A program made the translations under genes and the position numbers. Below, piece by piece: positions 10,449 through 56,356 of a stretch of DNA of 64,000 bases; position 1 is the first letter of the stretch; each line of letters begins with the position of its first letter. Where the stretch lies: the NCBI RefSeq assembly GCF_900116555.1, contig NZ_FPAT01000007.1, forward strand, positions 62,001 to 126,000. Reading direction: 5' to 3'. The notes below the pieces were generated by a model, which saw only the letters and a program-made list of their open reading frames with translations, did no database searches and was not told the DNA's origin. This stretch comes from Actinopolyspora lacussalsi subsp. righensis (GTDB lineage Bacteria; Actinomycetota; Actinomycetes; Mycobacteriales; Pseudonocardiaceae).

Positions 10449-10498
10449 CTACTCGATGTCGGGCCTCGCCGGAGCGAGAGCCCGCGAGAGGTTCCGCC
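10449..10498 (-). repeat. Diverged, inverted copy of dispersed repeat module 1
   Basis: On the minus strand this reads ggcggaacctctcgcgggct and ends with gcccgacatcgagtag. It aligns with the module at 18318, 31047 and 56156 with a few substitutions. It begins 6 bp after the stop of the plus-strand gene, so the module is cut off at its distal end. It is oriented downstream of the minus-strand CAP gene, like the other copies relative to their genes. Confidence 0.7.
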
Positions 10499-10579
10499 AC
10501 GGGAACGACTACGAGAACCGGGTCGACGAAGTACTACTACCGACTGTGCGTGAGTTTCGCACAGCTGTCGGGGAGCCGG

Positions 10580-10611
10580 CGGATGTGTCGGCGCGGCAGT
10601 CGACACATCCG
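10580..10611. terminator. Hairpin between convergent genes
   Basis: An 11-bp perfect inverted repeat (CGGATGTGTCG and CGACACATCCG) is separated by 10 nt. It lies in the 326-bp gap between convergent genes (10444-10769) and probably ends transcripts from either side. It lacks a T-run, so it would be an imperfect intrinsic terminator. The rest of the gap holds the inverted repeat module and a short duplicated atcggagtgctg motif near 10730. Confidence 0.5.
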
Positions 10612-10769
10612 TAGCTTCGCCCGCCGGGACGACATTCGGCGGGCCGCCACCTTCCGGTTCCCGCGACGAGTCTGTCCTTGATCGTGCCGGGCCGCGTCCC
10701 GCTGTGGCCCCTGGAGCGCTGGGAGATCGGAGTGCTGGGGTATCGGAGTGCTGTGACACCGGACCGATG

Positions 10770-11606
10770 TCATTCCGTTGAGTCGGTCTTACCGAACATC
10801 TGGGTCCAGTAGTGGGTCCACCGGCTTTCCCGATCGCTGGCGTATCCCACACCGAGTTCGGTGAACGAGCAGTTCAGGATGTTCTGCCGGTGTTCCGGGC
10901 TGCTGAGCCACTGCCGGAACGTCTTCACCGCGTCGGCGTTGCCCGCCGCCACGTTCTCTCCCACGTAGACCGAGGGATAGCCGGCTCGGTTGGCACGATT
11001 GATGTGATCGGCACCGTCGGCGCTCCGGTGACCGAGATAGTCCTGCCGGGCCATCTGTGCGCTGTGCCGCTCCGCGGCATCGTTCAGCGTCTCGTTCAAC
11101 CGCAGGTCCGGACAATCGGCCCGGCCGCGCGCCTCGTTGGTCAACCGGAGTATCCGCTCGGCCTTGCTGAGACGGTCCGCCTCACCGGGCTCGGCAGTAT
11201 CGTCTGGTTTGGCAGTGTTCCCGGGCCGCTCGATCTCGCCGGAAGAGTCGGCCTCGCCGGACGAACCCGGCTCGTCGGGCCTGTCGGTCTCACTCGGCTC
11301 GTGGGTGCTCCCGGTATCGTCGGGCCGTTCATTCCCGCTCGCGCTCTCGGTTGTTCCGGCAGCGGCGGACTCCCCGGTACCGTCCGGTCGTTCGAGCTGG
11401 TCGATCTCGTGTGGATCGTGGAACTCGTCGTCGCTGTCGGTCCTGTCGGTCCGCTCCGGCTCGGTGACCTCCTTGGTGTGGGCGATCTCCTCGGCCTGTT
11501 TGGTCGTTTCGGCGTCGTGTTGCTCGGCCGGGGCCAACTGCCACGCACCGAGCAGCAGTGTCAGTGGTGCGGCGGCGAGCAACAACCGTGGCGGTGTCCT
11601 GACCAT
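10770..11606 (-). CDS. Secreted CAP/SCP-domain protein
   Basis: This is a 278-residue protein. The start ATG at 11606 has GGAAG upstream; the frame stays open further upstream but without a ribosome site. An N-terminal hydrophobic signal or anchor (PPRLLLAAAPLTLLLGAW) is followed by a long acidic, Ser/Thr/Pro/Glu/Asp-rich linker of about 130 residues. The C-terminal CAP domain has HSAQMARQDYLGHRS, VGENVAAG, WLSSPEHRQNIL and YWTQMFG. CAP proteins are extracellular and may bind lipids or act as proteases or toxins; the role here is unknown. The acidic linker suggests exposure outside the membrane. Confidence 0.88.
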   Translation of the reverse strand: MVRTPPRLLLAAAPLTLLLGAWQLAPAEQHDAETTKQAEEIAHTKEVTEPERTDRTDSDDEFHDPHEIDQLERPDGTGESAAAGTTESASGNERPDDTGSTHEPSETDRPDEPGSSGEADSSGEIERPGNTAKPDDTAEPGEADRLSKAERILRLTNEARGRADCPDLRLNETLNDAAERHSAQMARQDYLGHRSADGADHINRANRAGYPSVYVGENVAAGNADAVKTFRQWLSSPEHRQNILNCSFTELGVGYASDRESRWTHYWTQMFGKTDSTE

Positions 11607-11887
11607 ATACAACTTCCGTCGTTCACCTGTGCTGACAACGGAATTTGTACCGCATCCGGGCGCACGCACGTACTCAATCGGCTCCGCCGGGGGATAACCG
11701 ACGCCGTATTTTCACCCGTCGGGGGAATGGTTGCCTTCCCGGACCGGCATACACGCGAGGCGTGTTCGCACGGCTCGGCGAGCACCCGGACCGGCGGAGC
11801 AGTGGCTTCCTCGCGGAGTTCGCGTTTCCGCGGAATTCTTCGGCGGTGTGGCCGCGGTTCACACCGGAACGCGTCCCCGAGGAAGTT

Positions 11888-11983
11888 TCAGAGTTGACTC
11901 GCGATGATCACGAACAGCGTGAGAATCCAACCGTTGATCAGTGTGAACAACAGGGCGAGTTTGTTGGTGACCAGACGGGGCAT
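11888..11983 (-). CDS. 31-residue single-helix membrane peptide
   Basis: The small frame reads MPRLVTNKLALLFTLINGWI followed by LTLFVIIASQL. It has a short basic N-terminus and then one uninterrupted hydrophobic helix. A ggagt ribosome site lies about 9 nt upstream of the ATG. It lies in the gap between the CAP gene and corA, both on the same strand. Such peptides often regulate transporters or act as toxins. I do not recognise this one. Its reality rests on the ribosome site and the membrane-like composition. Confidence 0.55.
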   Translation of the reverse strand: MPRLVTNKLALLFTLINGWILTLFVIIASQL

Positions 11984-17677: not shown

Positions 17678-18115
17678 GTGCGACCGACCGGAGCCGACGA
17701 GGACGGAGCGATGCGGGCATCGGCTGACCGAGGTGCCGACGAAGTGACCACACGCCCGCGAATCGCCGCCGGACGCTACCGGGAAAACGCGGACCGAGCG
17801 ACGGACGCCTTCCACATCGTCGACGGAGCCCGCCGACCAGGAGCTGTCGGCAGGGCGTTCCGTGGTTTGACGGGAGCGCTGACCGCTGGGCTGCTGGTGC
17901 TCGCGGTCGCTCTCGTCGGCGTGCAGCTCTGGGGGAGTGGCCTGGGAGGGGTTGGCCCCGGATGGCGGATGCTGTTGGGGCACGGTCTCGCCTCCGTCGC
18001 CGCGTTGCTGCTGCAGTTCGCGGCCGACAGGGGGAGCCGACCGGTGGCGGGGTGGTGCTCCCTCGCGGCCATGCTGGTAGTACTCGGAACCCTCACCTAC
18101 TGGTGGTGGCTTTAG
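17678..18115 (+). CDS. Hypothetical membrane protein
   Basis: This is a 145-residue protein. GTG 17678 follows the RecB-like stop by 3 bp, with gggggag upstream, so the two genes are probably one operon. The first 65 residues are polar. Three hydrophobic helices then follow (TAGLLVLAVALVGVQLW, MLLGHGLASVAALLLQFA and CSLAAMLVVLGTLTYWWW). No family motif is recognised. A role connected to the nuclease is only inferred from the spacing. Confidence 0.7.
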   Translation: MRPTGADEDGAMRASADRGADEVTTRPRIAAGRYRENADRATDAFHIVDGARRPGAVGRAFRGLTGALTAGLLVLAVALVGVQLWGSGLGGVGPGWRMLLGHGLASVAALLLQFAADRGSRPVAGWCSLAAMLVVLGTLTYWWWL

Positions 18116-18118
18116 AAC

Positions 18119-18411
18119 CCGCGGTACGGCTTGCCGGGGTGGTTGCGTAGCCGGCACGTGAGTCGGCGCCTTGCTTCGTTGGGCCGGCTCTTGAGTAGCG
18201 ACCTACGCGGCGAGCGGTCCGGCCTCGCAATGCATCCGACTCACGCACCGGAGACACTCGCGCTGCTTACGCGGCATGATGGGAGGTCTGCGGCTTGGTT
18301 CACGTAACTGGCCGCTTGGCGGAACCTCTCGCACGGCTCTCGCTGCGGGTCCGGCGACATCGGGTAGGTACCTACACAACGTCGGCGGCGCGGCGATTTC
18401 GCGAGAAATTG
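18119..18411 (+). repeat. Dispersed repeat copies D and A (3'-end element)
   Basis: Just after the stop at 18115 is a leading piece, ccgcggtacggcttgccggg (18119-18138). It is repeated at 31018 ahead of copy B. Module 1 begins at 18318 (ggcggaacctctcgcacggc) and ends near 18385. The hairpin CGATTTC-GCGA-GAAATTG follows at 18394-18411, with one G-U wobble. The middle module of copies B and C is absent. This accounts for most of the 328-bp gap before the minus-strand gene ending at 18444. Confidence 0.75.
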
Positions 18412-18443
18412 ACGGCGGCGTCGCCGCGCCGAAGAACACGGCG

Positions 18444-19652
18444 TCATCGGTAGGCGAAGACGGTGTCCCCGCGCTGTTCCAACACCACGTTTCCCACGGT
18501 CGCGACCCGGACGGGGGCCGTCGTGCTCTTCCGGTCGATCGGGATCTCGCCGAGCTTCTCACCCGCAGCGGAGTCGTGCACCGCCAGGCCACCCTCTACC
18601 GGAACCAGTAGATCCTCGGCCATCGCGGCGGGAGTTCCCAGGGTCTCGCGCACGGTCCAGCGCGGGCGCAGCGTGCTCTCGTCGAGCGCTATCGTATCCC
18701 GACCGGTGTACCAGTAGGTTCCCGCCGAGCCCGAGGTCGCTTCCACCCGCACGGCAGACCCCCGATCCGGGGTGGCGCCGAGACGGACGTCGTAACTCGC
18801 GCGGCGCTTTCCCGACATGTCGTAGATCACCAGCGTCGCGCTGTCCCGCAGCACCACGGCGACCCGCTCCCGGTTCACCGCCACCACGCCCGCTCGCTCA
18901 CCGCCGAGCAGGGTGGTCATCACTTCCTCGGGCTGTTCGCCGTCCTCGGGATTGGCCCTGAGCACGGTCAACCGGTCCCTGGCCGAACCCGCGCACTCGG
19001 CGATGACCGCGACCCTGCGATCACCGACCGCGGTTGCCGAGTAATCGCAGTTCGGGCGGCTCAGGTTGTTGTCGGGGTTCTTGATGTCGGTGGGGGTGCC
19101 GTACTGCTGTGTACGGACCATGTCCGAGCGCCACGTCTCGAACAGTCGCTGTCCGGTGGCGGTCACGTAGCTTCCGTCGGACAGCAGCCGGGTTCCGAAG
19201 CCCACGTCGGAGTTGCGTTGCGGACCGCGTTCCCCGTCGGAACCGTGCAGTGTGGTCACGGCACTGCAGTGGTGTGCCGTGCGGTAAACCGCGATCGCGT
19301 TACCCCATTCGGACCCCACCGTGCACAGTTCCCGTTCCCGGCTGTAACGCCACCGGATCTCACCGGTGGCGGGGTCACGGCCAACCACAGCACCGTCGTT
19401 CCCCGTCACCACGGCCGGTCCCGCGACCACGGGGTGAGGGGTCGCCGAACTCGGCGCCCGCCATACCGGGTTCAGATCCTCCGGCACGGTTCTCGCGCTC
19501 GGCACCGGCTCGATCGGTCGGTCGGCGGTGTGCAGCTCGGTCGCGCGGGCCGAGCTGAACCACCAGAGCGTTCCGGCGCCGCTCAGTACCGCGACGGTGA
19601 GCAACAGCGTCACGGCGATGTCGCTCTTCGTGCGCCGTTCGGGCCGTACCAC
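18444..19652 (-). CDS. Membrane-anchored beta-propeller-like protein (Rv3212-like)
   Basis: This is a 402-residue protein from GTG 19652. An N-terminal helix (DIAVTLLLTVAVLSGAGTLW) anchors it and the rest is predicted outside. The body has PQQ/WD-like blades, such as GAVVGRDPATGEIRWRYSRE and TIALDESTLRPRWTVRETLG, consistent with a propeller. Four cysteines (CTVG, HHCSA, PNCDYS and AECAG) may form disulfides. It sits next to rhlE, as Rv3212 does next to Rv3211 in M. tuberculosis. The biochemical role is not known to me. Confidence 0.75.
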   Translation of the reverse strand: MVRPERRTKSDIAVTLLLTVAVLSGAGTLWWFSSARATELHTADRPIEPVPSARTVPEDLNPVWRAPSSATPHPVVAGPAVVTGNDGAVVGRDPATGEIRWRYSRERELCTVGSEWGNAIAVYRTAHHCSAVTTLHGSDGERGPQRNSDVGFGTRLLSDGSYVTATGQRLFETWRSDMVRTQQYGTPTDIKNPDNNLSRPNCDYSATAVGDRRVAVIAECAGSARDRLTVLRANPEDGEQPEEVMTTLLGGERAGVVAVNRERVAVVLRDSATLVIYDMSGKRRASYDVRLGATPDRGSAVRVEATSGSAGTYWYTGRDTIALDESTLRPRWTVRETLGTPAAMAEDLLVPVEGGLAVHDSAAGEKLGEIPIDRKSTTAPVRVATVGNVVLEQRGDTVFAYR

Positions 19653-19834
19653 GTCGCTCCCGGTTGCTCGCTGTTACGACAGTTCCGTCCCCTCGAGACT
19701 AGTAGGACGTCGCCGGTTCGGTTCTCGCGGTGCACGATCGCCCGCGAGACCGCCAGTGGGCACCCGCCGCCGAGTTGATTCCCGCGGTTGTGGGCCCCGG
19801 GATCCCCGCGGCGGGTTCGTGGTGCGCAGCGGGC

Positions 19835-21463
19835 TCAGTGCCCTGAGGAACCCGCCACCTCCTCGGTGCGGCTCTTCGCCGGGGAACCGCGTCGCGTCCG
19901 GTTGCGCCTGCGCGCCGGTCGCTGCGAGTTCTGCTGTCCACCGTCCGCGTCGGAGGTGGACTCGGACTGGTTCACCGTCTCGTCGACCGGCTTGCCTCCC
20001 CGCGTACGACGCCGCTTCCGCCGTGCGGGCCGGTTCCCGGCATCGTCGTTGCTCTCGGCGCGGGCCGCTTGCTTCTCGGGCCGTCCCGAGCCGCGCTTCC
20101 TGCTCTTGCCCCGGTTGCCCTTGCCGCCGTCGTTCTCCTCCTCCTCGGACCCCAGACCGGTCCTGGTGCGCATCGACAGCGGCAGCCTGCCGCCCGCGTC
20201 GGAGGGAATGTCGAGATCCTCGAACAGGTGGGCCGAGGTGGAGTAGGTCTCCACGGGCTGGGGCATGTTCAACCCGAGCTCAGTGTTGATCAGCTGCCAG
20301 CGGCTCTCCTCGTCCCAGTCCACCAGCGTTACGGCCACCCCGGTGCGTCCGGCACGGCCGGTACGCCCGATCCGGTGCACGTAGGTCTTCTCGTCCTCGG
20401 GGCACTGCAGGTTGATCACGTGGGTCACGCCCGCGACGTCGATCCCGCGCGCGGCGACGTCGGTCGCCACCAGGATGTCGATCTTTCCGCTCCGGAACGC
20501 ACGCAGTGCCTTCTCCCTGGCGGTCTGCCCGAGATCACCATGTACCGAACCCGCGGCGAAACCCCGTTCGACGAGCTCGTCCGTCAGTTTCTGGGCCGAG
20601 CGCTTGGTGCGGCTGAAGATCATCGTCAGTCCGCGGTCGCGGGCCTGCAGCGTGCGAGCCAGCAGCTCCGGTTTGTCCATCGCGTGCGCTCGGTAGACGA
20701 ACTGGTGGGTCCGTTCGTGTACCGCGCTCTCGTCGGCCTGCTCGGCCCGGATCTGGGTCGGCTGGTGCAGGAAGTCGCGAGCGAGTTTGATGATCGCGTC
20801 GGGCATCGTTGCGGAGAACAGCATCGTCTGACGCTGCTCGGGGACCATGCTCAGAATCCGCTCGATGTCGGGCAGAAAACCCAGGTCGAGCATCTCGTCG
20901 GCCTCGTCGAGCACCAGGGTCTCGACCTTGCCGAGAACGAGATGTTTCTGCTCGGCGAGGTCCAGCAGTCTGCCCGGGGTGCCGATGACCACGTCCACGC
21001 CCGCTCGCAGCCCTTCGATCTGCGGTTCGTAGGGCCTGCCGCCGTAGACCGCGAGACTGCGCACCCCCAGATAGCTCGCTGCCGCTTCCAGGTCACGTGT
21101 GACCTGCATGCACAGTTCCCTGGTGGGAACCACGACCAGTGCCTGCGGTGTTCCGTCGCCGGGCAGCCGCATCCGTTGCAGCAGGGGAACGCCGAACCCG
21201 AGGGTCTTGCCCATACCCGTTCGGGCCTGCCCGATCAGGTCCGCTCCACGCAGCGCCAGCGGCAGGGTCATCTCCTGGATCGTGAAGGTGCGTTCGATAC
21301 CCGCTTCGCGCAGCGCACGCGTGATCTCCTCGTTCGCCCCCAACTCGGCGAAAGTGGGGCTGTTCGCGTTGACCGCCGCTTCCGGTTGCGTCGCTTCCCG
21401 CTGTTCGGTTGACCCCTGCTGCTCAGCAGCGGCCCCCGCACCGGAGTGATCGGGTTCGGTCAC
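19835..21463 (-). CDS. rhlE: DEAD-box RNA helicase RhlE
   Basis: This is a 542-residue protein. The motifs are complete: Q motif (FTIQEMTLPL, 60-69), Walker A (ARTGMGKT, 80-87), PTREL (113-117), TPGR (162-165), DEAD (186-189), SAT (217-219), then GDLGQ, ATDVAARGID and HRIGRTGRAG. The C-terminal 140 residues are basic and low complexity (RKRGSGRPEKQ, RRKRRRTRGGK), as in RNA-binding tails. It likely unwinds RNA in degradation or ribosome biogenesis. Start GTG 21463 lacks a strong ribosome site, so the exact N-terminus is uncertain. Confidence 0.93.
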   Translation of the reverse strand: MTEPDHSGAGAAAEQQGSTEQREATQPEAAVNANSPTFAELGANEEITRALREAGIERTFTIQEMTLPLALRGADLIGQARTGMGKTLGFGVPLLQRMRLPGDGTPQALVVVPTRELCMQVTRDLEAAASYLGVRSLAVYGGRPYEPQIEGLRAGVDVVIGTPGRLLDLAEQKHLVLGKVETLVLDEADEMLDLGFLPDIERILSMVPEQRQTMLFSATMPDAIIKLARDFLHQPTQIRAEQADESAVHERTHQFVYRAHAMDKPELLARTLQARDRGLTMIFSRTKRSAQKLTDELVERGFAAGSVHGDLGQTAREKALRAFRSGKIDILVATDVAARGIDVAGVTHVINLQCPEDEKTYVHRIGRTGRAGRTGVAVTLVDWDEESRWQLINTELGLNMPQPVETYSTSAHLFEDLDIPSDAGGRLPLSMRTRTGLGSEEEENDGGKGNRGKSRKRGSGRPEKQAARAESNDDAGNRPARRKRRRTRGGKPVDETVNQSESTSDADGGQQNSQRPARRRNRTRRGSPAKSRTEEVAGSSGH

Positions 21464-22208
21464 CTCGTCGCTGTTTGTCAGAATAATCGCCTCTCTCGTT
21501 CTCGCTCACACCGTGTTTCCGCAGGCTGTCGTTCCGATGCCTCGGCGTACCGACGGGTGGCGATATCGGTTTGTGACCACACTCGGGCTCGGGGGTCGGG
21601 ACGAGGGCCGTCTTCGACCGCACGATTCCCGGCTCCTGCCCTGCCGAGGTGGCGAACTGTGTCGGCGCCCGGTCCGCCTCGGCCCGTCGACCCGTACGCG
21701 CCGCGCGTGTCACGGAGTGCGAGCGATCTCCGCTCGCTCTCACGTGGCCGCGTTCGCCGAGCCGTGATCGGGCCGTGTGCCCGGTGTCCCACCGGCACAT
21801 CGGGCGGTGGCTGCCCACTTCGGTCCTGTAGCGAGGTGGTGGTGTCCGTGCGCGAAGTGCTCCGTCGGTCGGGCCGATAACCTCGGACCCCTGCCACCGG
21901 TGTACTGCCAACCGGGGTGGTCCACCGACGAGCGCCGTCCTCGGTCGCTCGCGGGATCGGCTGCCGCCGTCACGGTCTCCGCCTGACGCCAATAAACCTC
22001 CCTTCCCGGGAGCCTACCCGTTTTCCCATACCCTGCGGGCTCCGGATGGCGAACGCCACCTCTTGCGTAATCGGCGTGGATGCGTTAAAGGACGTTGGAG
22101 TTCTCTTGTCGTCCCAGGTCAGGAGGGGGTCGGGATCGGCGCTGCTCCCGACACGGCGGAAACCGTTCCGTAATCCCGCGTCCCGGGTGGGAGCGGTACG
22201 CTCGCGGC
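21464..22208. other. Divergent promoter region between rhlE and MiaE-like gene
   Basis: This 745-bp gap has no gene I can support. It contains a 7-bp hairpin GCGAGCG-atctc-CGCTCGC (21719-21737) and a longer one (21776-21799, TGTGCCCGGTG and CACCGGCACA with one bulge). The rhlE 5' leader may be long, as in cold-responsive helicases, but the promoter was not identified. Confidence 0.5.
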
Positions 22209-22928
22209 ATGAGCGAGGCTGAGCACAGCGTTGTGGCTTCCGGAGTGGCGGACTCCGAGGATGCGGCGGAGTCCGAAGAGCCGCATGCCGAGTACAACGA
22301 AGGGGTGAAGGATCTGCTCGGCGCGTTGGCCTACGGTGAGCTCTCCGCCTTCGACAGGCTGGCCGAGGACTCCAGGGAGGCGCCCACCCTGACGGGTCGA
22401 GCGGCGCTGGCGAGCATGGCCGCCGCCGAGATGGGGCACTTCCGGTTGCTGGAGGAACGGCTCGCGGACAGGGGCGTCGCGGTCGAGGACGCGATGCGTC
22501 CGTTCGCGAGTTCCTTCGACGCGTTCAACGCCTCGACCGCACCGCACTCCTGGTTGGAGTCGTTGGTGAAGGCCTATGTCGGGGACGGGCTGGCAGCCGA
22601 TTTCTACCGCGAGGTCGCCAACTGGCTCGACGAGGAGACCCGTGATCTGGTGCTGACGGTGTTGTCGGACACCGGGCACTCGGCCTTCGCGGAGCGCGAG
22701 GTCTCGGCCGCCTGCGCCGAGGACGAGACGTTGCGGGACAAACTGACCCTCTGGGGCCGCAGGCTGCTGGGGGAAGCGGTGACGAACGCGCAGTGGGTCG
22801 TGGCCGAGCGGGACGCGCTCGCCGAACTGATCATCAGGGGGTCGGGGGACCTCGCGGGGATCGGCTCGTTGTTCCGCAGGTTGCAGAACAACCACAACAA
22901 GCGGATGTCCCGGCTCGGGTTGGGTTGA
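22209..22928 (+). CDS. Ferritin-fold MiaE-like protein (Rv3210c-like)
   Basis: This is a 239-residue protein from ATG 22209. Its helical sequence has several candidate di-metal ligands ([34 protein letters not shown] and [12 protein letters not shown]). This matches the MiaE_2-type ferritin-like family. MiaE proper hydroxylates a modified adenosine in tRNA; whether this homologue does so is not known. The acidic N-terminal 30 residues precede the fold. It lies between rhlE and DUF3107, the same neighbourhood as in mycobacteria. Confidence 0.8.
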
Positions 22929-23184
22929 TCGTCCGACCGGGTGCGGAGGCTGACTGGCTGCGGGGTCTGACCGGGTGCGGGGATAGCGGAGCCGGTCTCC
23001 GGCACCGTGCCGTGTTCGTTCGGAACCCTCCGGTGGTGCCGGTGCCCGCATACCGTGCGGTTCCGCCGCGCGTCCGAGACGATCCGCGCCGGGGATCGTT
23101 CCGCCTCGTGCCCGGTCGAGCAGATAGTCTGTGGTCAACGCGGTAGACAGCTATGAGTGCACAGCTACGACAGGAGGCAGTGAC

Positions 23185-23409
23185 GTGGAGGTCAAGGTCG
23201 GCGTCGAGGGCTCGCGCGAGCTCACGCTGAACAGTGGTCAGTCCCAGGAGGAAGTCGAGAAGCTGGTTTCCGAGGCGCTGGGCAGCACCGAGGGGAACCT
23301 GCGGATCGACGACGAGAAGGGCACGCGCTACATCGTGCCCAGCGCCAAGATCACGTACGTCGAGATCGGTGCTTCGGAGACCCACCGCGTCGGTTTCGGA
23401 GTGGGTTGA
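23185..23409 (+). CDS. DUF3107 protein (TB9.4/Rv3208A-like)
   Basis: This is a 74-residue protein from GTG 23185, 7 nt after an aggagg ribosome site (23172-23177). The sequence is one small acidic alpha/beta domain (VKVGVEGSRELTLNSGQSQE, then RYIVPSAKITYVEIG). It matches the conserved actinobacterial DUF3107 family, which usually sits by a TetR gene. Function is unknown. It ends just before the pair of strong hairpins that separate it from the convergent DUF4873 gene. Confidence 0.85.
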   Translation: MEVKVGVEGSRELTLNSGQSQEEVEKLVSEALGSTEGNLRIDDEKGTRYIVPSAKITYVEIGASETHRVGFGVG

Positions 23410-23438
23410 TCCGGCCAGTGCCGGTGTGAACGTCGACA

Positions 23439-23468
23439 GCCGGTGCGTCGCGGTCGCGACGCACCGGC
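23439..23468. terminator. 14-bp stem hairpin after DUF3107 gene
   Basis: Arms GCCGGTGCGTCGCG and CGCGACGCACCGGC pair perfectly around a 2-nt centre (effectively a 4-nt loop). It is 29 bp past the stop at 23409. There is no T-run, but the stem is very stable. It probably ends the plus-strand transcript. Confidence 0.65.
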
Positions 23469-23519
23469 GTGCTCGAATGCTCTCCCGGTCTCCCGACGAG
23501 CCGTGCCGTCCCGGTCGGA

Positions 23520-23550
23520 CCGCTTCCCGACGGGCCCCGTCGGGAAGCGG
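23520..23550. terminator. 14-bp stem hairpin after DUF4873 gene
   Basis: Arms CCGCTTCCCGACGG and CCGTCGGGAAGCGG are separated by 3 nt. It lies 6 bp beyond the minus-strand stop (23557). It probably ends the minus transcript. Each of the two convergent genes thus has its own hairpin. Confidence 0.65.
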
Positions 23551-23556
23551 CGCCGT

Positions 23557-23910
23557 TCAGTCCGTCTCGCCGAGCTCGACCAGCTCCGAGTCGATCGGGA
23601 ACGGTGGGCGTCCCAGTCCGGTGATGCGATAGCGGTTCCACGGGTCCGGGTCGGAAAGCGTGGCCACGGCATCGCCGTGCGGGGTGCGCAGCACGACCTC
23701 TGCCTTGCGGCCGTCCACGAGCTCGTCCAGCTCGCTGCCAGCCGTCGCGCGGCCGTACCAGTGGAACCTTCCGTCGATGGGCTGGAAGTTGCCCCGCAGC
23801 ACCACCTCCACGTCGGCCTCTCGTTCGGCGGTGAAGACCACGGCGGAGCCGTGGTAGTCGTCGTCACCGTGTTCGTCGTCGCGCGGTGGTTCGTCGACCC
23901 GCTGTGCCAT
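23557..23910 (-). CDS. DUF4873-like small protein
   Basis: This is a 117-residue protein. ATG 23910 has AAGGG about 8 nt upstream. The sequence is a small beta-rich domain (GSAVVFTAEREADVEVVLRG, DGRFHWYGRA, WNRYRITGLGRPPFP). It resembles the DUF4873 family that also appears fused to flavin monooxygenases in actinobacteria; no activity is assigned. It is the last gene before the TetR-diiron module. Confidence 0.65.
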   Translation of the reverse strand: MAQRVDEPPRDDEHGDDDYHGSAVVFTAEREADVEVVLRGNFQPIDGRFHWYGRATAGSELDELVDGRKAEVVLRTPHGDAVATLSDPDPWNRYRITGLGRPPFPIDSELVELGETD

Positions 23911-24122
23911 CTGATCGCCCTTCGTTCCCTTGGCTCGAACCGGTGGTTGGGCCTGTCCGGTTCCCGTGTCGCCCTCCGATGACGGTCGCGCCGTCCACCG
24001 GGCGGTGGCCGTTCGATCCCGCGGCCGCCACGGGGGCGGTCGGTGGGAGTTTTCGCCCGTGGAGTTCCGCCAGGTGATTTCCGCTCGGTGAGCACCCGTC
24101 GAGTGCGCGCGGGAGATCCCGG

Positions 24123-24854
24123 TCAGTCCGCGTCGTCCTCGACGACCCGCAGGTGCGGGACGATCTCCAGTGGTTCGTCCGGGTCGATGACGATGCCCCC
24201 CGCGCGCAGCACCCCGTCGATGGCGAACCAGATGATCTTCGTCAGGTACTCGGTGAGGTCGTCCCTGCTCATCGAGTGTCGGTCCAGCCACCAGTCACCG
24301 CTGGCCTGCACCATTCCGACGAGACCGTGACTCCATGCCTCCACGCCGCCCGAATCCAGTTCCAGGCTGCGCATGTACTCGCCCAGTAGCCGGGAGAGCG
24401 AGTTGGCTATCACCGTCTTCTCGGTGGTGACGGGATCGGTCTGTACCGGCCTGTCGGCGAAGTTGCGTCGTACGACGAAGCGGTACAGCTCCGGGTACTC
24501 CTCGATGACCCCCAGATAGGTGCCGATGATTCGGCGGATCCGTTCGCGGGCGCTGCCCTCCTGTCGCAGGGTCGGGCTGATCCGCTCCATGAGCAGGTTC
24601 GTTCCCCACTCGCCGACGGCGAGGTACAGATCGCTCTTGTCGCTGAAGTGTCGGTACAGCACGGGCTTGCTCACCCCCGCCTCGGCGGCGATGTCGTCCA
24701 TGCCGACTTCAGCCCCGCAGCTGCCGATGGCCCGCACGGCTGCCTCGACGAACTCGGCTCGCCTGGCCTGCCGGTGTCCGCGCCAGCGTTCCCTGCGGGC
24801 GTCGCCGTGTCCCGTTGACTGCTTGGCCTTGACAGGCCGGGAGATCTGGCTCAC
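24123..24854 (-). CDS. TetR/AcrR-family regulator
   Basis: This is a 243-residue protein. I chose GTG 24854 because the sequence upstream of it is occupied by the divergent promoter and a palindrome. HTH: VGMDDIAAEAGVSKPVLYRHFSDKSDLY (about residues 49-76). A long variable C-terminal domain follows. It is divergent from the diiron oxygenase gene, and a perfect inverted repeat lies in the 76-bp interval (24870-24886). Autoregulation and control of the oxygenase-hydrolase pair are the simplest reading. Confidence 0.88.
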   Translation of the reverse strand: MSQISRPVKAKQSTGHGDARRERWRGHRQARRAEFVEAAVRAIGSCGAEVGMDDIAAEAGVSKPVLYRHFSDKSDLYLAVGEWGTNLLMERISPTLRQEGSARERIRRIIGTYLGVIEEYPELYRFVVRRNFADRPVQTDPVTTEKTVIANSLSRLLGEYMRSLELDSGGVEAWSHGLVGMVQASGDWWLDRHSMSRDDLTEYLTKIIWFAIDGVLRAGGIVIDPDEPLEIVPHLRVVEDDAD

Positions 24855-24869
24855 GCTACCCAAGGTAGC

Positions 24870-24886
24870 TGTTACTTGCCGTAACA
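24870..24886. promoter_or_regulatory. Operator-like inverted repeat
   Basis: TGTTAC-TTGCC-GTAACA is a perfect 6-bp inverted repeat with a 5-nt spacer. It lies between the divergent TetR and diiron oxygenase genes, 16 bp from the TetR start. This is typical of a TetR-family site. A related sequence occurs upstream of the TetR gene at 28 kb. Confidence 0.65.
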
Positions 24887-24930
24887 CGCAATTGTCCGCA
24901 GGGTTTCCCTCCGAAAGGTGACCAGCGATC

Positions 24931-25830
24931 ATGACCAAGGCTCTCCAGGTCAACGACAGGGAAAAGACGGCTTCCCGATTACTCAAGTCATCGGCCAAGA
25001 ACAGCTACGACCCCGAGGTCGACATCGACTGGGACGCGCCACTGGCGCAGGATCAGCCCTACATCCCCTTCCACCGCAGCACGCTCTACGGCACTCGGCT
25101 CTGGGATCGGCTCACCGAGCAGCAGCGCGTCGAACTCACCAAGCACGAGTTCGCCAGCATCGCCTCGAACGGTCTCTGGTTCGAGGTGCTGCTGATGCAG
25201 ATGCTGCTCAAGGACTTCTACAACCGGGACCCGCGCACCAATCACGCCCAGTACGCGTTGACCGAGGTGGCCGACGAGTGCAGGCACTCCACCATGTTCG
25301 CCAAGGCCTGCGACCGCATCGGCGCCCCCGCGTACGGGCCGGTCCGGATCCTGCACGCCGGGGGGCGGGTGCTGCCCGCCATTCTGAAGGGCCCTTCGGC
25401 CTATGCCTCCATCCTGGTCGCGGAGGAGATCCTGGACCGGGTGCAGCGCGACCAGATGTACGACGAGGCGGTGCAGCCGTTGGTGCGGATGGTCAACCGT
25501 ATCCACGTGATGGAGGAGGCGCGGCACGTCACCTTCGCCCGGGAGGAGGTCACCCGAGGGATGCGGGAGTGCAACGCCGCCCAGCGCGCCTACCACCAGT
25601 TCATGACGGCGCTGGTCGGGTTCTGCATCGTCAAGGCGCTGATCAATCCCAGGATCTACAAGTCGGTCGGGCTGCGCCCCAGGGACGCCTACGCGGCTGC
25701 CATGGCCAACCCGAACTGGCGCGAGACCGTGCGCTGGAGCGGTGAGAAGATCATGTCGTTTCTGGACGAGGTCGGCCTGATCGGCAAACCCGGGATGGCC
25801 CTGTGGCGGAAGGCTGGACTGATCCGTTGA
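24931..25830 (+). CDS. AurF-like diiron oxygenase
   Basis: This is a 299-residue protein from ATG 24931 with gaaagg upstream. Candidate ligands of the non-heme diiron centre are in E116-C-R-H119 (ADECRHS), EE166-167 and E195/E196 with H199 (MEEARHV). This is the ferritin-like arrangement of the p-aminobenzoate N-oxygenase AurF and relatives. Members oxidise amines or fatty acids; the substrate here cannot be named. Its stop overlaps the hydrolase start (TTGA), so the two are translated together. It is divergent from a TetR gene with a palindrome between. Confidence 0.85.
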   Translation: MTKALQVNDREKTASRLLKSSAKNSYDPEVDIDWDAPLAQDQPYIPFHRSTLYGTRLWDRLTEQQRVELTKHEFASIASNGLWFEVLLMQMLLKDFYNRDPRTNHAQYALTEVADECRHSTMFAKACDRIGAPAYGPVRILHAGGRVLPAILKGPSAYASILVAEEILDRVQRDQMYDEAVQPLVRMVNRIHVMEEARHVTFAREEVTRGMRECNAAQRAYHQFMTALVGFCIVKALINPRIYKSVGLRPRDAYAAAMANPNWRETVRWSGEKIMSFLDEVGLIGKPGMALWRKAGLIR

Positions 25831-26738
25831 CAGCACAACAACTCGAACAGGGAACACGGCTGCTGCGTACTTCCGACGGTACGCGCCTCGCGGTCGACGA
25901 GAGCGGCAGCCCGGACGCGCCGGTCACGGTTGTGCTGATACACGGCTGGACACTCACCCGGCACACCTGGGACCGGGTGACCGACCGGTTGCCCGCGGCT
26001 CTCGGGAGCCCGGTCCGGATCGTGCGGTTCGACCACCGTGGGCACGGTGACTCGGATCCCTCGCCCGAGGGAACGGCGACCATCGCGCAGTGCGCCGACG
26101 ACCTCGCCGAGGTGATAGCTGATCGGGTTCCGGAGGGACCGATCGTGCTGGCCGGTCACTCCATGGGAGGCATGACCATCATGGCGCTCGCGGAGCGGCA
26201 TCCGCGGCTGTTGGCGGAGCGTGTCACCGGTGTGGCGCTGGTGGCCACTTCCAGCGGTGGGCTCTCGGCCCCAGGGCTGCGGCTGCCGGACCCGCTCGCC
26301 AGGGTGTTCAACGCGGGGGAGCGAAAGCTGCGAGCCGTGCTGGCTCGTTCGTCCGCGCGCAGGGTCAGCCCACGTTCGGGGTGGATGCGCCCCGGGTTGC
26401 GCTGGTTGCTGTTCGGCAGCGGTCCCGCCGCGGCCGATGTCGCCGAGAGCGCGGAGTGGGTGGCCGGTTGTCATCCGGCCAGTTTCGCCGGTTTCCGGCA
26501 GTCCCTGGCCGAACACGAACGGGGAGCCGCGCTGGCAGGACTGCCCGCGGTGCCGACCGTGATCCTGGCCGGGCTGTCCGACAGGCTGTGTCCGCTGCCG
26601 CACGCTCGTCGCATGTCGGAGCGACTGCCCGAAGCGGGGTTCTACCTCTACGGCGGTGCCGGGCACATGCTCCCGATGGAGCGGGCCGACGAGGTCACCG
26701 ACCGCATCGCCGACGTCACGCGATCCGTGCCGGGCTGA
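25827..26738 (+). CDS. Alpha/beta hydrolase
   Basis: This is a 303-residue protein taken from TTG 25827, which overlaps the previous stop. ATG 25803 inside the oxygenase gene is the alternative start. Motifs: HGW (39-41), DHRGHGDSD, the nucleophile elbow GHSMGG (Ser112), late Asp in GLSDRLCPL, and the His in GAGHMLP. It is a complete triad. Its role could be an esterase, lipase or lactonase. Pairing with the diiron oxygenase suggests a joint pathway on an acyl or amine substrate. Confidence 0.88.
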   Translation: MTAQQLEQGTRLLRTSDGTRLAVDESGSPDAPVTVVLIHGWTLTRHTWDRVTDRLPAALGSPVRIVRFDHRGHGDSDPSPEGTATIAQCADDLAEVIADRVPEGPIVLAGHSMGGMTIMALAERHPRLLAERVTGVALVATSSGGLSAPGLRLPDPLARVFNAGERKLRAVLARSSARRVSPRSGWMRPGLRWLLFGSGPAAADVAESAEWVAGCHPASFAGFRQSLAEHERGAALAGLPAVPTVILAGLSDRLCPLPHARRMSERLPEAGFYLYGGAGHMLPMERADEVTDRIADVTRSVPG

Positions 26739-26953
26739 TCCGCACCGGACGGTTCCCACGGTTTCCCGCCCGCCCGAGAGCACCGAGAAGCCGGGCGGTT
26801 CACCGCCCCGCCGCGGTCGTGATCGGGTGATTCCGGTCCGACGTTCGGTACGGTGGCCAACGGCGGTACCCGTCGGTGGGGCGACCCGTCCCTCGGTTCG
26901 AGCAGCGGGTCGCCCCACCGTTCGGACGGAACCAACCGGCTGAAAGGACTTCC

Positions 26954-27313
26954 GTGGGACAGCACACCAGCGGTACTCATCATCACGGCTACGTCGAGGA
27001 CGCACCGTTGAACCAGGCGATGTCCGCTCACGAGCGGTTGTCCCGGCTCGACGCCGTGGAGATCCTGCACACTCCGGACGAGGTGGCGCAGTGGTTGGCC
27101 AGCACGCTGCGCGCCGCGATGGGTAAATCCGAGGAGGAGGTCGCGTTCAAGGACGAGTGGGACCAGTGGGTCAAATACGCCCATTCGGGCGAGACCATCA
27201 CCACCGGCCTGCTGCGCGGCCCCACCATCAGCGCCGTGTCCGTTCCCGAGGCGGAGTGTCGTTGCGCGTCCACCCCGTTGGTGCCGGTCGGGGGTAAGAA
27301 GCGCAGTCGGTGA
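26954..27313 (+). CDS. Hypothetical protein
   Basis: This is a 119-residue protein from GTG 26954 with gaaagga upstream. The N-terminus has GTHHHGY, the middle is a charged helical stretch (LSRLDAVEILHTPDEVAQWL, KDEWDQWVKY), and the end has ECRCAS followed by a basic GGKKRSR tail. I recognise no family. It follows the hydrolase by 215 bp. Its ribosome site and codon use fit a real gene. Confidence 0.6.
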   Translation: MGQHTSGTHHHGYVEDAPLNQAMSAHERLSRLDAVEILHTPDEVAQWLASTLRAAMGKSEEEVAFKDEWDQWVKYAHSGETITTGLLRGPTISAVSVPEAECRCASTPLVPVGGKKRSR

Positions 27314-27397
27314 CAACGGCCGTGGTGTGTGGGGAGCCACCGGGCGCTGTTCCGCTGACCCGGTACCCCACCACACGCTCCCGGCGGCGGACCTCGG

Positions 27398-28033: not shown

Positions 28034-28092
28034 TTGAAAGCCTCCACCGAAGGATGTCGACCCGGCGGTCGTGTGCGTGTCGGGCTCCCCAA

Positions 28093-28110
28093 CTTTACTT
28101 GTCGGTAGAG
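28093..28110. promoter_or_regulatory. Candidate TetR operator (imperfect)
   Basis: CTTTAC-ttgtcg-GTAGAG is an inverted repeat with one mismatch. Its core TTACTTGTCGGTA resembles the perfect site at 24870 (TTACTTGCCGTAA). It lies 60 bp upstream of the TetR start at 28033. Confidence 0.45.
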
Positions 28111-28216
28111 CGATTGTGCCGGTTACCTGATCGGCTTACCCGTGCTACGGGCCCCTCGAATCCACGAGGGAAAGCGTAGGTTCCCGCTGTTGAGCAGTGA
28201 ATCATCGCGGGCAACC

Positions 28217-31011: not shown

Positions 31012-31017
31012 GGAGTC

Positions 31018-31247
31018 CGCGGTACGGCTTGCCGGGGTGCTTCCGTGGCGGAACCTCTCGCACGGCTCTCGCTGCGGGTGCCCCGACATCGGGTAGGTAC
31101 TACACAACGTCGGGCCTTCCTCGCGAGAGTCGCACGGGAGAACCCGCGGGTTTCTTGGGCTGCGTGCGTGGTGGGAGTTCGGCTCGCGGGAGTGGTGGGA
31201 GTGCGGCCCCGTGCCGTCCCACCGCCCGGCGATTTCGCGAGAAATCG
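31018..31247 (+). repeat. Dispersed repeat copy B, full length
   Basis: Starting 6 bp after the moeZ stop, the element has the leading piece (ccgcggtacggcttgccggg), module 1 (31047-31114), a middle module (ttcctcgcgagagtcgcacg, then gtggtgggagttcggctcgc), and the hairpin CGATTTC-GCGA-GAAATCG at 31230-31247. It is the longest copy in the window. The rest of the 390-bp gap is the promoter region of the next gene. Confidence 0.78.
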
Positions 31248-31401
31248 ACACCGCGCGGACCCCGCTCCGGAAGTGGGGACGGGGCCGGGCTTCCACATCG
31301 GGACCGCGGCACCCCGGCGCGTCGGTTTGATCGTGTCGAATCGCGCGGTTGATCGGAGCGTCTGCGACCGTGCGAATTCGAGTACGGGTAGCGTTTGGCG
31401 C

Positions 31402-40431: not shown

Positions 40432-41046
40432 ATGGCGCAGAACACGGAGAACAGGCTGGACGCCTCCATGCAGCAAGAGGTGTCCGTGGACGAGGACGTC
40501 CTCGCGTTGCGCGCACCGCTGGTGCTGGTGCGGCGGAACGATCAGGGTGAGTGGATCTTCGAGGGGCCGGGCGAGTCCCCCCGCCCCACGGTGCGAACCG
40601 TGCTCGGTGCCGTGGTCAACGCATGGCCGCACGTCTCGGCCCTGGCCGAGTTGGAACCGGGGTCCGCCGCGGTGTGGTCCTGGGACAACCACGGCTGGAC
40701 GAGCGAGTTCGAGTGCACCTGCGGCGAGTGCGAGCAGCCGGTGGCCACGGATCTGGATCGCCGTACCTGGCCCGGTGAACTGGATCCCGAGGATCTCGTC
40801 AGCGTGGAGGAGACGGCGCTCTCGGGGCAGGAGGTGCTTACCAACATCCTCTACACCTCCGGCAGGATCGCGATGCTCGGTCCCGGCGAGCAGCACCGCA
40901 CCAGTGACCAACTGGCCTCGGTGGCGATGGCCAACGTGATTCGCCGTTGGCCCCACACCATGCGTGCGCTGTGCTCGGTGCGCTCCGGCTATCTGCTGCG
41001 GTGGAACGCGGAGAGCCTCAACTGGCACGAGTACGAGGCGGTCTGA
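40432..41046 (+). CDS. Hypothetical protein
   Basis: This is a 204-residue acidic protein. ATG 40432 has a correctly spaced agga; ATG 40423 is closer to the ribosome site. The sequence has many Trp (SWDNHGW, TWPGEL, WPHTM, RWNAES, WHEYEA) and a cysteine pair (CTCGECEQ, about 95-101). No family is recognised. It is followed 9 bp later by the 3' hairpin that overlaps the convergent gene. Confidence 0.6.
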   Translation: MAQNTENRLDASMQQEVSVDEDVLALRAPLVLVRRNDQGEWIFEGPGESPRPTVRTVLGAVVNAWPHVSALAELEPGSAAVWSWDNHGWTSEFECTCGECEQPVATDLDRRTWPGELDPEDLVSVEETALSGQEVLTNILYTSGRIAMLGPGEQHRTSDQLASVAMANVIRRWPHTMRALCSVRSGYLLRWNAESLNWHEYEAV

Positions 41047-41055
41047 TCACCCGGC

Positions 41056-41077
41056 GTCGATTTCACGGGAAATCGGC
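41056..41077 (+). repeat. Dispersed hairpin copy F, overlapping convergent gene end
   Basis: GTCGATTTC-ACGG-GAAATCGGC gives a 9-bp stem counting a T-G pair. It begins 9 bp after the stop at 41046. The stop codon of the minus-strand gene (41063-41065) is inside it. This is the shortest form of the family: hairpin only, without modules 1 or 2. Confidence 0.65.
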
Positions 41078-41629
41078 GCCCCCGCCCTCGGTGGTGTTGG
41101 AGGTGCTCTCGGTGCTGTGGAACTCCTGTCGCAGCACTCGCTGGTACAGCAGTTCCAACAGCCATCTCTCGAACAGCGAGGTGCCGAACTCGGCTCTTCG
41201 GTCCTCCGGGGACAGCACGAGTCTGGCGGGGCCGTCCCGGTAGGTGGTGACGGCGCCGATGCCGTAGTAGTCCAGCTCGGTGAGCGCCCAGGGCCGGTAG
41301 GGGTGGTCCCCGGGAAGCACAGCCGCGCACGGGGCGATCGTGAGCAGTGTTCCGCACGCTCTGGTGGCTCGCCGGGCCTTCGAGACGCGCACCATCACAC
41401 CGATCAGGTCCACGGCGGGCACCGGGACCTGCTCGGGACCGTCGGGTTCGGCCCAGGCGTGCACACCGGAGGGCTCCGCCTGTGGTGGCCAGTCGTGCGC
41501 GGTGCGCCACTGGTGCACGTCGGGGCGAAGCCGCGTGACGGCTGTGAAACGGGAGCCGAGAACCTCCACATTCGACACGAGATGACCGTGCCAGCCCAGT
41601 ACGCGGGCCGCGTGCTCGAACTGCTGCAC
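41063..41629 (-). CDS. Hypothetical protein
   Basis: This is a 188-residue protein from GTG 41629. It has several Trp and aromatic residues (GWHGHLV, WRTAHDWPPQ, VHAWAEP, PYRPWALTELDYYGIG). No motif or signal is recognised. A partner relation with the convergent gene ending at 41046 cannot be inferred from sequence. Composition and codon use fit a real gene. Confidence 0.6.
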   Translation of the reverse strand: MQQFEHAARVLGWHGHLVSNVEVLGSRFTAVTRLRPDVHQWRTAHDWPPQAEPSGVHAWAEPDGPEQVPVPAVDLIGVMVRVSKARRATRACGTLLTIAPCAAVLPGDHPYRPWALTELDYYGIGAVTTYRDGPARLVLSPEDRRAEFGTSLFERWLLELLYQRVLRQEFHSTESTSNTTEGGGADFP

Positions 41630-54723: not shown

Positions 54724-54786
54724 TCACCGCGAGGCCGCTCCGAACAACAACCGAACAGCCATGTTCACGGAAGTGAGACCAGCAGA

Positions 54787-54942
54787 ATGTATCCCGAGGA
54801 AACCACGCGATTACGTTGTCGACAGTTCCGCGGTGAGGCCGAGCGCGCCAGACTGCCGCACCGGATCGCCGTCGTGCGGTTCTGGCGCCGGGTGGCGTGC
54901 TTCGCTTCCCGGCGGGCCGAACGTTACGAGCGGCGCATCTGA
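54787..54942 (+). CDS. Small basic protein downstream of whiB7
   Basis: This is a 51-residue frame from ATG 54787 with ggaagtgag upstream. It begins MYPEETTRLRCRQFRGEAER and is Arg-rich (15 Arg), ending in ERYERRI. I recall small MYPE-starting basic proteins in actinobacteria. It is 63 bp after whiB7 and may share its transcript. Function unknown; a DNA- or RNA-binding role is only suggested by charge. Confidence 0.55.
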   Translation: MYPEETTRLRCRQFRGEAERARLPHRIAVVRFWRRVACFASRRAERYERRI

Positions 54943-55251
54943 TCCGAGTTCCGAGCGGGGTGCCCGAGGGGCGCGGTTCGCGACCTCCCCGGCGCCCCTC
55001 GACCGCGGAACACAACCTCCTCCGGTCGACGACACGACCGGAGAAGTTCCGTCCGACGCGTGAGTTCGGACGAGCTCGATGAGCTGTCGTGGCCCGGCGA
55101 GTGCGCGGTGTTCGCGTACGAGCCGGCCACCGGTGTTCGCCCGGTTCGGGCGTGCCGAGGACTCCGCCCGGACGGTCACACAGTCGGAACCGGACCGGGT
55201 GCCGTTGTGCGGAGCGGAATTCGGTTGTCCGGCCGGCTAAGCTTGCTGATC
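54943..55251. other. Gap before methyltransferase, with hairpin
   Basis: This 309-bp stretch carries a 10-bp stem (CGAGGGGCGC and GCGCCCCTCG, 54965-55001) that may end the whiB7 transcript. I see no gene otherwise. The frame of the following methyltransferase is open upstream to 55060 but with no better start. Confidence 0.5.
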
Positions 55252-56121
55252 ATGCACCATCATTCGCACGACAACATCGACTGGGACACCCGGCTGCGGC
55301 AGCTGCGGGACGAGGACGGCCTCACCGCGACCCAGACACGGCGAATCGCGGAGACACTGGTCGCGGGGCAGGACGCCTGCCACTCGGTGATCGACGTCGG
55401 ATCAGGGGCGGGCGGCGCGGCCGCGGCGTTCGCCGCCACTCTGCCGGGTGGCACGGTTACCCTTGTCGATTCCGCGCCTGAGCTGCTCGCCGAGGCCGAG
55501 CGTCACGCCACCGAACACGCCGCCTCGGGGGTCGAGGTTCGCGGTGTGCGGGCCGATGCCGCCGACGAGGAGCTCGGTGCCGCGGTGGGCAGTGCCGATC
55601 TGGTTTTCTCCTCACTGGTCGTGCACCACCTGCCCGACCAGCTGGCCGGCTTGCGTCGGCTGGCGGAACTGGTCCGTCCGGGAGGCAGGCTGGTTATCGT
55701 GGAGTCCGGGCTGTGGGCGCACGTGCTGCCCTGGGACGTCGGTGTCGGTGAACCAGGACTGGAGGAGCGCCTGCTGGCGGCGCGGCACTCCTGGTTCCGC
55801 CGGATGCGCGCCGAGATGCCGGGTACGGTGCGGCTGCCCGTCGGTTGGTCGACCGCCCTGCGGCAGGCAGGGCTGGAAGACGTCGAGTCGTGGAGCTACC
55901 TGGTGGACTGGCCCGCCCCGGTCACCGGTTCGGTGCGCGACATCGTGCTGCGCAGGTTGGAGTGGCTGCGCGAGGCCGCCGTGGAGGAGTGCTCCGCCGA
56001 CGACCTGGCCGCGCTCGACCAGCTGCTCGACGAGCGGGGGCCGCACTACGCCGGGCGGCGCGACGATCTCTACTACCTGGCCGCGCACAGCGTGTTCGTC
56101 GGCCGCAAACCCGCCTTGTAA
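55252..56121 (+). CDS. Class I SAM-dependent methyltransferase
   Basis: This is a 289-residue protein. ATG 55252 begins a Rossmann fold: SAM motif VIDVGSGAGGAAAAFA (about 46-61), then VTLVDSAPELLAEAE and DLVFSSLVVHHLPDQ. The sequence resembles class I methyltransferases acting on small molecules. The N-terminus is His-rich (MHHHSHDN). The substrate is unknown. It lies between whiB7 and the ABC1 gene, with a full repeat element after its stop. Confidence 0.88.
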   Translation: MHHHSHDNIDWDTRLRQLRDEDGLTATQTRRIAETLVAGQDACHSVIDVGSGAGGAAAAFAATLPGGTVTLVDSAPELLAEAERHATEHAASGVEVRGVRADAADEELGAAVGSADLVFSSLVVHHLPDQLAGLRRLAELVRPGGRLVIVESGLWAHVLPWDVGVGEPGLEERLLAARHSWFRRMRAEMPGTVRLPVGWSTALRQAGLEDVESWSYLVDWPAPVTGSVRDIVLRRLEWLREAAVEECSADDLAALDQLLDERGPHYAGRRDDLYYLAAHSVFVGRKPAL

Positions 56122-56155
56122 CGTGTTGCCGCTCGGCTTTCGTGGTGGCTCGTTT

Positions 56156-56356
56156 GGCGGAACCTCTGGCACGGCTCTCGCTGCGGGTGCCCGACATCGG
56201 GTAGTCACTACACAACGTCGGGTCTTCCTCGCGAGAGCCGCACCGGAGAACCCGCGGCGGTGCGGGCTGCCTAGGTGGTAGGAGCTCGGCTTGCGGGAGT
56301 GGTGGGGGTGCGGCACCGCGTCGTTCCACAGCCCGGCGATTTCTCGTGAAATCGCC
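56156..56356 (+). repeat. Dispersed repeat copy C
   Basis: Module 1 (56156-56222: ggcggaacctctggcacggc, then cccgacatcgggtag), the middle module with gcgagagccgcaccggagaa and gtggtgggggtgcgg, and the hairpin GGCGATTTC-TCGT-GAAATCGCC (56335-56356, perfect 9-bp stem). It starts 34 bp after the methyltransferase stop and ends 5 bp before the ABC1 stop. Confidence 0.78.

Follow-up and report, generated by a model that had tools for sequence, protein, structure and literature searches.

What are the repeated sequences that lie past the 3′ ends of functionally different genes in a 64,000-nt stretch of the Actinopolyspora lacussalsi subsp. righensis genome (contig NZ_FPAT01000007.1, positions 62,001 to 126,000, hereafter the window), and in which molecule do they act? 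An earlier note on this DNA had argued against an insertion sequence and for either an intergenic element of mobile origin or an RNA structure in the 3′ untranslated region (3′-UTR). Our data support this description, with the exception that RNA is less secure as the acting molecule, since the complementary strand folds at least as well and the copy at 10449 does not directly follow a stop codon on its own strand. Placement behind stop codons, a fold with paired changes within and between genera, high copy number, and the exchange and loss of pieces at fixed sites are all directly supported. With a confidence that stops just short of even, we interpret the repeats as a copied family of gene-end hairpins acting as a transcript 3′-end signal.

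A full copy consists, from the stop codon onward, of a leader of about 30 nt (degenerate consensus GctCGGtttgCgtgG.tGgTcgcgT), a class A hairpin, a middle stretch rich in G and, at the end, the palindrome GATTTCGCGAGAAATC. Class A is one long irregular hairpin with internal loops, 99 to 104 nt in length with single-base variation among the 86 full copies of the window's genome. A second form, class B (GGCACGTGAGTCGG..CCGACTCACGCACCGG), has a similar layout, including an apical GTAG..CTAC, and the models of the two classes each match the other class weakly. The palindrome also occurs alone; it gives 273 and 260 genome matches on the two strands, and the number of sites lies between 273 and 533 because near-palindromic sites may match on both. 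Within the window it was matched 10 times, at five sites read on both strands, compared to an expectation of 0.07. A 26-nt core of the element has 135 matches at ≤3 mismatches (62 forward, 73 reverse) in the 4.92-Mb genome (22 contigs, the window being on contig C3) and none when the pattern is reversed. The similarity between copies is thus beyond chance, as the earlier note had held, and the family extends well outside the window.

The placement of these copies relative to genes is highly constrained. We examined 110 distinct copies from the same genome (≤4 mismatches to the core), using our own gene caller trained on these genomes. None lay inside a called gene, an observation that, like the single-base length variation of class A, gives no hint of the conserved peptide that the earlier note had named as a refuting outcome. 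The preceding gene was on the same strand in 93 cases and on the opposite strand in 17. Most of the sense copies (85/93) begin 29 to 49 nt past the stop codon, where even placement in the gap would predict 12.5 (standard deviation (SD) 2.9). The SD of this spacing is 3.9 nt (sense copies under 60 nt), compared to 97 nt for the distance to the end of the other gene (58 convergent cases). Among the eight sense copies located beyond 49 nt, at least six are preceded by class B, complete or as remains, and one by a terminator-like hairpin. A similar picture was obtained in A. mzabensis, A. alba and A. xinjiangensis, whose 91 copies include 74 in sense orientation and 15 that follow an opposite-strand gene, the caller placing no gene upstream of the remaining 2. 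Within the sense group, 68 of 74 copies are found 27 to 48 nt past the stop codon, and 63 of the 70 that have a called downstream gene are at the set spacing (6.3 expected). Between genes of the same direction, 35 copies run along the genes and 9 against them (p 1e-4), the corresponding numbers in the three named species being 31 and 12 (p 0.005). A convergent neighbour was seen for 58 of the 93 sense copies vs. 51 of 142 element-free gene ends (gaps of at least 100 nt; p 1e-4, with one contig as background). Class B copies behave alike at the loci examined, with 29 of 30 in sense orientation, 20 of these at 25 to 60 nt.

The covariance test that the earlier note had called for was successful, with paired changes seen both in Actinopolyspora and across genera. 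When 170 copies were first folded together with RNAalifold, the result was poor owing to an inner stem whose position differs from one subfamily to another, and pairs were read segment by segment. In 158 distinct class A copies, 17 of the 19 stem pairs hold in more than 150. One pair is exchangeable (CG in 93 copies, GC in 45, making 138 paired in total), and its neighbour is paired in 134, mostly as T-G. The inner stems occur as matched sets, GGCCC/GGGCC (64 copies), GCCCC/GGGGC (23) and CCGGC or CCGGA/TCCGG (31), with a mismatched minority. Within the genus, this amounts to 53 double-change cells vs. 17.3 after shuffling. An alignment of 29 copies from six other genera made on sequence only (A5) yielded 37 pairs by RNAalifold, 23 of them with double changes. 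In this alignment, 93.8% of cells are paired (76.6% shuffled), 162 cells show double changes (51.7 shuffled) and the covariation score is 0.416 (0.129 shuffled), values reached in 0 of 500 shuffles; these counts are favoured to some degree because the structure was predicted from the same alignment. Structures slid along A5 as a control paired in only 38 to 50% of cells. Alignments A2 to A4, which are reverse-strand readings of the hairpin, were left out of the counts.

In the apical loop of class A, internal-loop letters were also seen to covary in Actinopolyspora, CGG..ACAA changing to CGA..GCCA in most cases. The loop behaves as if it had two linked states, and it might serve in tertiary contacts or in protein binding.

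An indication that the fold is maintained in place comes from a genus referred to here as g53, of which four genomes have one match each to model R3. In three of them the copy lies 15 nt 3′ of gatB, whose protein is 94-96% identical to that of the first genome; in the fourth it lies behind a different gene. The gatB copy is closer than the usual spacing because gatB ends inside the leader. Between the three gatB copies, both partners have changed in 6 of 17 stem pairs, and pairing holds in 48 of 51 cells. Such in-place paired changes suggest selection on the fold at a fixed site, beyond what recent copying would leave.

How widely is the family distributed? The core pattern has at least 78 matches in public genomes, those listed all being from A. 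mzabensis, alba or xinjiangensis. The covariance model R1 matched 17 of 61 relatives at E ≤0.01. Its carriers are each of the nine Actinopolyspora genomes that were searched, along with single genomes of six other genera of the same family (G013, G020, G021, G022, G050 and G051), which have 16, 41, 124, 7, 17 and 10 matches, respectively, at 1e-4; some of these model counts, that of G021 among them, may be raised by near-palindromic sites read twice. Two single weak R1 matches (L247, from another family, and L248) lack the motifs and were set aside as apparent chance. In the other genera the stem letters differ yet pair, and the motifs GCGGAACCT, TGTCCTCGC and GAACCC recur. Model R3, applied with strict filters to 200 evenly drawn genomes of the order, matched 12 genomes and 3 of 60 genera, all in the same family as the other carriers; the best 16 candidates per genome were scored, and g53 may hold matchless genomes or more copies. 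In total, the family is spread over eight genera of one actinobacterial family. Of the 29 copies from the six genera, 18 are in sense orientation at 25 to 60 nt and none is inside a gene, according to the caller trained on Actinopolyspora; several of the remaining 11 have, by eye, a stop codon at the usual place with no called gene. The class B model also matches G035 and G049. Rfam (release 15) gave no match above the gathering cut-off in the window and, at 13 further loci, detected only adjacent tRNA genes and sub-threshold matches to four animal RNA families. We found no account of the family in the open PMC literature at the level of titles and abstract starts. These data establish a real, widely conserved family of folded repeats at gene ends that is absent from Rfam.

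Three side observations concern distribution. The class B model gave one to three matches, with best E values of 1e-6 to 1e-8, in G034 (another family), G016 and G045, all outside the known carriers. In G003, a complete 5.24-Mb genome, a gap of 1.91 Mb (C1, 1344315-3257344) separates the 53 listed core copies (of 78), and a gap of this size was equalled in 0 of 20,000 random placements; the element seems to be restricted to part of this chromosome. In G021, 77 of the 96 listed matches follow a replichore bias (counted by eye, with the origin assumed at 0).

Comparison of close relatives shows that the sites are shared and that their contents turn over. The comparators were G041, from the same species, and A. 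alba (G007), which are 97.4% and 96.2% identical, respectively, to the window's genome over aligned blocks. Their spacers and those of the window's genome have sites in common, with differing contents and a varying number of palindromes; at one site, class A is present here, class B in G041, and class A with a class B remnant in A. alba. The copy at 18318 is a shortened version of the form seen in the two comparators (the spacer is 328 nt here and 455 nt in G041). Among 10 genomes of the genus, 6 carry the element behind the ThiF gene (29809-31011) and 4 lack it. Past the methyltransferase gene (55243-56121), 5 of the 10 carry it, G004 has a reduced form, and G001 retains a diverged leader-like piece. 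In 100 kb of G002 we found six copies, five of which could be compared with the window's genome, G041 and A. alba; at four of these sites the other three genomes have shorter, element-free spacers. The fifth G002 site (L301, 11894-12435) holds two tRNA-Met genes with a class A element behind the T-run hairpin of the first, and in the other three genomes the tRNA-Met pair lacks the element. The orthologous genes remain in place with or without it.

We favour a transcript 3′-end signal because of the fixed spacing to one stop codon, the direction bias, the enrichment at unit ends and the compensation behind gatB. The hairpin would form in the transcript while polymerase and ribosome leave the gene; it may end or trim the transcript and protect its end, and possibly also halt ribosome read-through. 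Since both strands fold, one element could serve both genes of a convergent pair. New copies would arise from a copying process that settles near gene ends, and host genes would later come to depend on some of them.

A number of observations weigh against this interpretation. Folding is stronger in the complement than in the sense strand for each of the four copies compared (z -4.3, -5.7, -4.3 and -6.6 vs. -1.5, -3.5, -3.4 and -4.5) and for the six-genus consensus (-62.3 vs. -50.2 kcal/mol). A-C cells can form a wobble pair in the complement only. In the six genera they exceed G-T cells by 29 to 7 (17 of the 29 in one internal-loop region); in Actinopolyspora class A the count is nearly even, 28 to 20, setting aside three fixed pairs (one T-G, found in 108 of the 158 copies, and two C-A). 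Class B shows the opposite tendency (67 G-T vs. 11 A-C), on a structure predicted from the sense strand. The wobble counts do not single out one strand, and a bidirectional, DNA or mobilisation role is conceivable. In addition, hairpins of the intrinsic terminator type (GC-rich, with a T run) were found at four sites in 17900-31500, none within elements, and at none in 56000-56500, by a test that detects terminators only if they have a T run. A terminator-like hairpin with a T run precedes at least two copies (L162 of the window's genome and the tRNA-Met locus of G002), and a second terminator would be idle there. Copies whose upstream gene is on the opposite strand (17/110 in the window's genome, 15/91 in the named species) have no obvious sense transcript. 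A chimera of classes A and B, joined at their common apical GTAGCGACC, is unable to form either complete hairpin; the window's genome and A. alba both carry it behind the same gene (L148, L064). Lastly, pairing between leader and tail, which RNAalifold supports in other genera, is unsupported in Actinopolyspora (mean -11.38 vs. -11.47 shuffled).

The best-surviving alternative, doubtful but a serious contender, is that the element is a selfish, non-autonomous mobile hairpin without host function, whose fold is needed for mobilisation by an enzyme acting in trans on single-stranded DNA or RNA and which prefers, or survives only at, gene ends. Its forms are patchy and lineage-specific: the 135 core matches compare with 0 to 2 in four sister species, while the model still gives at least 52 matches in three of these and 4 in the other. 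The sites occupied in one species and empty in another, the cassette exchange at one site (A, B, or A with a B remnant) and the well-folding complement are also in its favour. The retention of the gatB copy in three species with compensatory changes in place speaks against it. Nor is target duplication at the stop codon above chance: a duplicated flank was seen in 1-2 of 153 copies (4- and 5-mers) vs. permutation means of 3.3 and 1.1, a test applied to the stop-codon position only, the outer ends of the element not being sharply defined. A candidate duplication in A. alba, CCTGA on both sides of a class A element (C3:49360 site), was dropped when the general test proved to be at chance. Reverse transcriptase was rejected as a partner, with RVT_1 matches in 2 of 15 carriers and none in the window's genome. 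A requirement for a Y1 transposase was likewise rejected; Y1_Tnp genes were matched in 10 of 15 carriers and not in G021, which has the highest count, G002, G008, G022 or G051. The copies show no sign of being ordinary transposon remnants as far as these two enzymes, which do not track the element, and stop-flank duplication are concerned, other transposase families not having been searched, nor a gene-bearing parent systematically.

A structure or protein-binding site acting in the DNA, such as a cruciform or a nucleoid or gyrase site at which supercoils gather past genes without involvement of the transcript, is improbable. The folding of both strands, the enrichment between convergent genes and the palindromic tail would agree with such a site. 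Such a site would not, however, be expected to lie at a near-constant distance from one stop codon (SD 3.9 nt) and at a variable one from the other gene's end (SD 97 nt), or to show a direction bias between genes of the same direction.

We consider it very unlikely that this is an ordinary family of repetitive extragenic palindromic (REP) sequences or bacterial interspersed mosaic elements (BIMEs) moved by a REP-associated Y1 transposase. REPs are described as palindromes of 20-40 bp with a GTAG or CGTC tag (PMC3733652), and abstracts in the literature tie them to Y1-type transposases. According to PMC12306157, 446 of 4,072 Escherichia coli REPs are within 15 nt of a stop codon and the remainder further away. 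The points of resemblance are high copy number, extragenic location at gene ends and between convergent or same-direction genes, and compensatory variants of paired stems (PMC3733652, PMC12306157). The presence of Y1_Tnp genes in 10 of the 15 carriers is a further one. In contrast, our elements are far larger (a hairpin of about 100 nt plus leader, about 100-240 nt in all), with conserved internal and apical loops; they mostly have one direction relative to the preceding gene and start 29-49 nt past its stop codon, and their best carrier, G021, with 124 model matches, gave no Y1_Tnp match.

Integron-like attC sites, where a hairpin behind each cassette gene is recombined through its bottom strand, share the position behind stop codons, a variable stem with conserved shape and a good bottom-strand fold, but have almost nothing to recommend them here: the copies are dispersed in both orientations and not in arrays, orthologous genes keep their place regardless of the element, and both arms carry AAC in the same direction, whereas the R boxes of attC read RYYYAAC..GTTRRRY, in inverse order.

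Other known elements each resemble the family in part. Mycobacterial interspersed repetitive units are short tandem repeats at coupled start-stop sites; like our family they are actinobacterial, located at stop codons and follow the gene direction, but they are not known to have a conserved complex hairpin. Group IIC introns insert near terminators, also in the direction of the gene; 13 of 15 carriers have no reverse transcriptase match, a test that does not extend to introns without an open reading frame, and intron domains were checked by Rfam scans only. Ribosome termination structures (RTS) are stable folds just past stop codons, favoured at unit ends and beside opposite-strand neighbours (PMC7518266). 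A further mark of RTS is a block to translation re-initiation. The spacing, convergent enrichment and sense-strand stability of our family (z -1.5 to -4.5 in four copies) agree with this description. RTS is a folding tendency of unrelated sequences (PMC7518266), whereas we are dealing with one homologous family with conserved motifs and copies. What RTS describes is the position and a possible role of our elements, rather than a homologous family. The L17 downstream element, also a structured candidate in potential 3′-UTRs, whose uncertain strand was argued from G-U pairs, is bound to one gene (PMC2864571), while our family is found at many unrelated genes. Together, these comparisons point to a variation on known extragenic repeats and 3′-end structures that had itself gone unrecognised.

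Within the window, the class A cores begin at 18318, 31047 and 56156, exactly as first reported, and the sequence at 10449-10498 is an inverted and truncated class A copy as claimed (model match 10384-10530, minus strand, 38.5 bits, E 1e-6), although not directly 3′ of a stop codon on its own strand. The leading piece noted at 18119 and 31018 is real, but is the leader of a hairpin copy rather than a separate free module: at 31018 of a class A copy, at 18119 of a related class B copy (R2 match 18118-18257, 152.6 bits), located past the stop codon and ahead of the class A copy at 18318. In the hairpin at 31047..31149, outer stems GCGG..CCGC and CCTCTCG..CGGGAG enclose the main stem CGGCTCTCGC..GCGAGAGTCG, followed by the inner stem and the apical GTAG..CTAC. 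The hairpin-less copy at ~3823-3935 (minus strand) and the lone palindrome at 41058-41075 are additional to the earlier list. Short GGCGG repeats flanking the class A hairpin were noticed by eye alongside the former; slippage between them across the hairpin could delete it cleanly.

Table 1. Components of the repeat family mapped in the 64,000-nt window
Feature	Position	Strand	Context or evidence
Leader + middle + palindrome, without class A hairpin	~3823..3935	-	limits approximate, by eye
Truncated class A copy	10446..10498	-	38.5 bits to R1; inverted-repeat comparison
Leader	18116..18149	+	3′ of stop codon, gene 17678-18115
Class B hairpin GGCACGTGAGTCGG..CCGACTCACGCACCGG	18150..18251	+	152.6 bits to R2, 36.6 to R1; related layout
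Second leader, for class A copy behind class B	18282..18317	+	left limit approximate
Class A copy with internal deletion	18318..18387	+	75.6 bits to R1
Terminal palindrome	18388..18413	+	repeat comparison and palindrome scan
Leader	31012..31046	+	directly 3′ of stop codon, ThiF/rhodanese gene 29809-31011 (Pfam)
Class A hairpin	31047..31149	+	149 bits to model R1; pair counts
G-rich middle stretch	31150..31223	+	repeat comparison within window
Terminal palindrome GGCGATTTCGCGAGAAATCGAC	31224..31252	+	repeat comparison and palindrome scan
Lone terminal palindrome	41046..41080 (palindrome 41058-41075)	.	junction of two convergent genes; overlaps called end of second (41063-41629)
Leader	56122..56155	+	3′ of stop codon, methyltransferase gene 55243-56121 (Pfam)
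Class A hairpin	56156..56258	+	153.9 bits to model R1
Middle stretch	56259..56330	+	repeat comparison within window
Terminal palindrome	56331..56357	+	5 nt short of end of convergent gene 56362-57726

Taken as a whole, the family might represent a new class of dispersible gene-end element, a proposal we make with some reserve: a single homologous folded module, known in two related forms, which places copies of itself at a set distance past stop codons, occurs in at least eight genera of one actinobacterial family, has been adopted by its hosts as a 3′-end signal and has a domesticated copy behind gatB in one genus. To our knowledge, how transcripts end in high-GC actinobacteria, often without T-run terminators, is poorly known, and the family also bears on how small repeats reach gene ends. 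Closely related strains provide many natural replicates, in which a given gene has the element in one strain and lacks it in another, or has class A in one and class B in another; a 3′-end function can thereby be tested directly. Were this function confirmed, many unrelated genes would share a single folded module as exchangeable punctuation at their ends.

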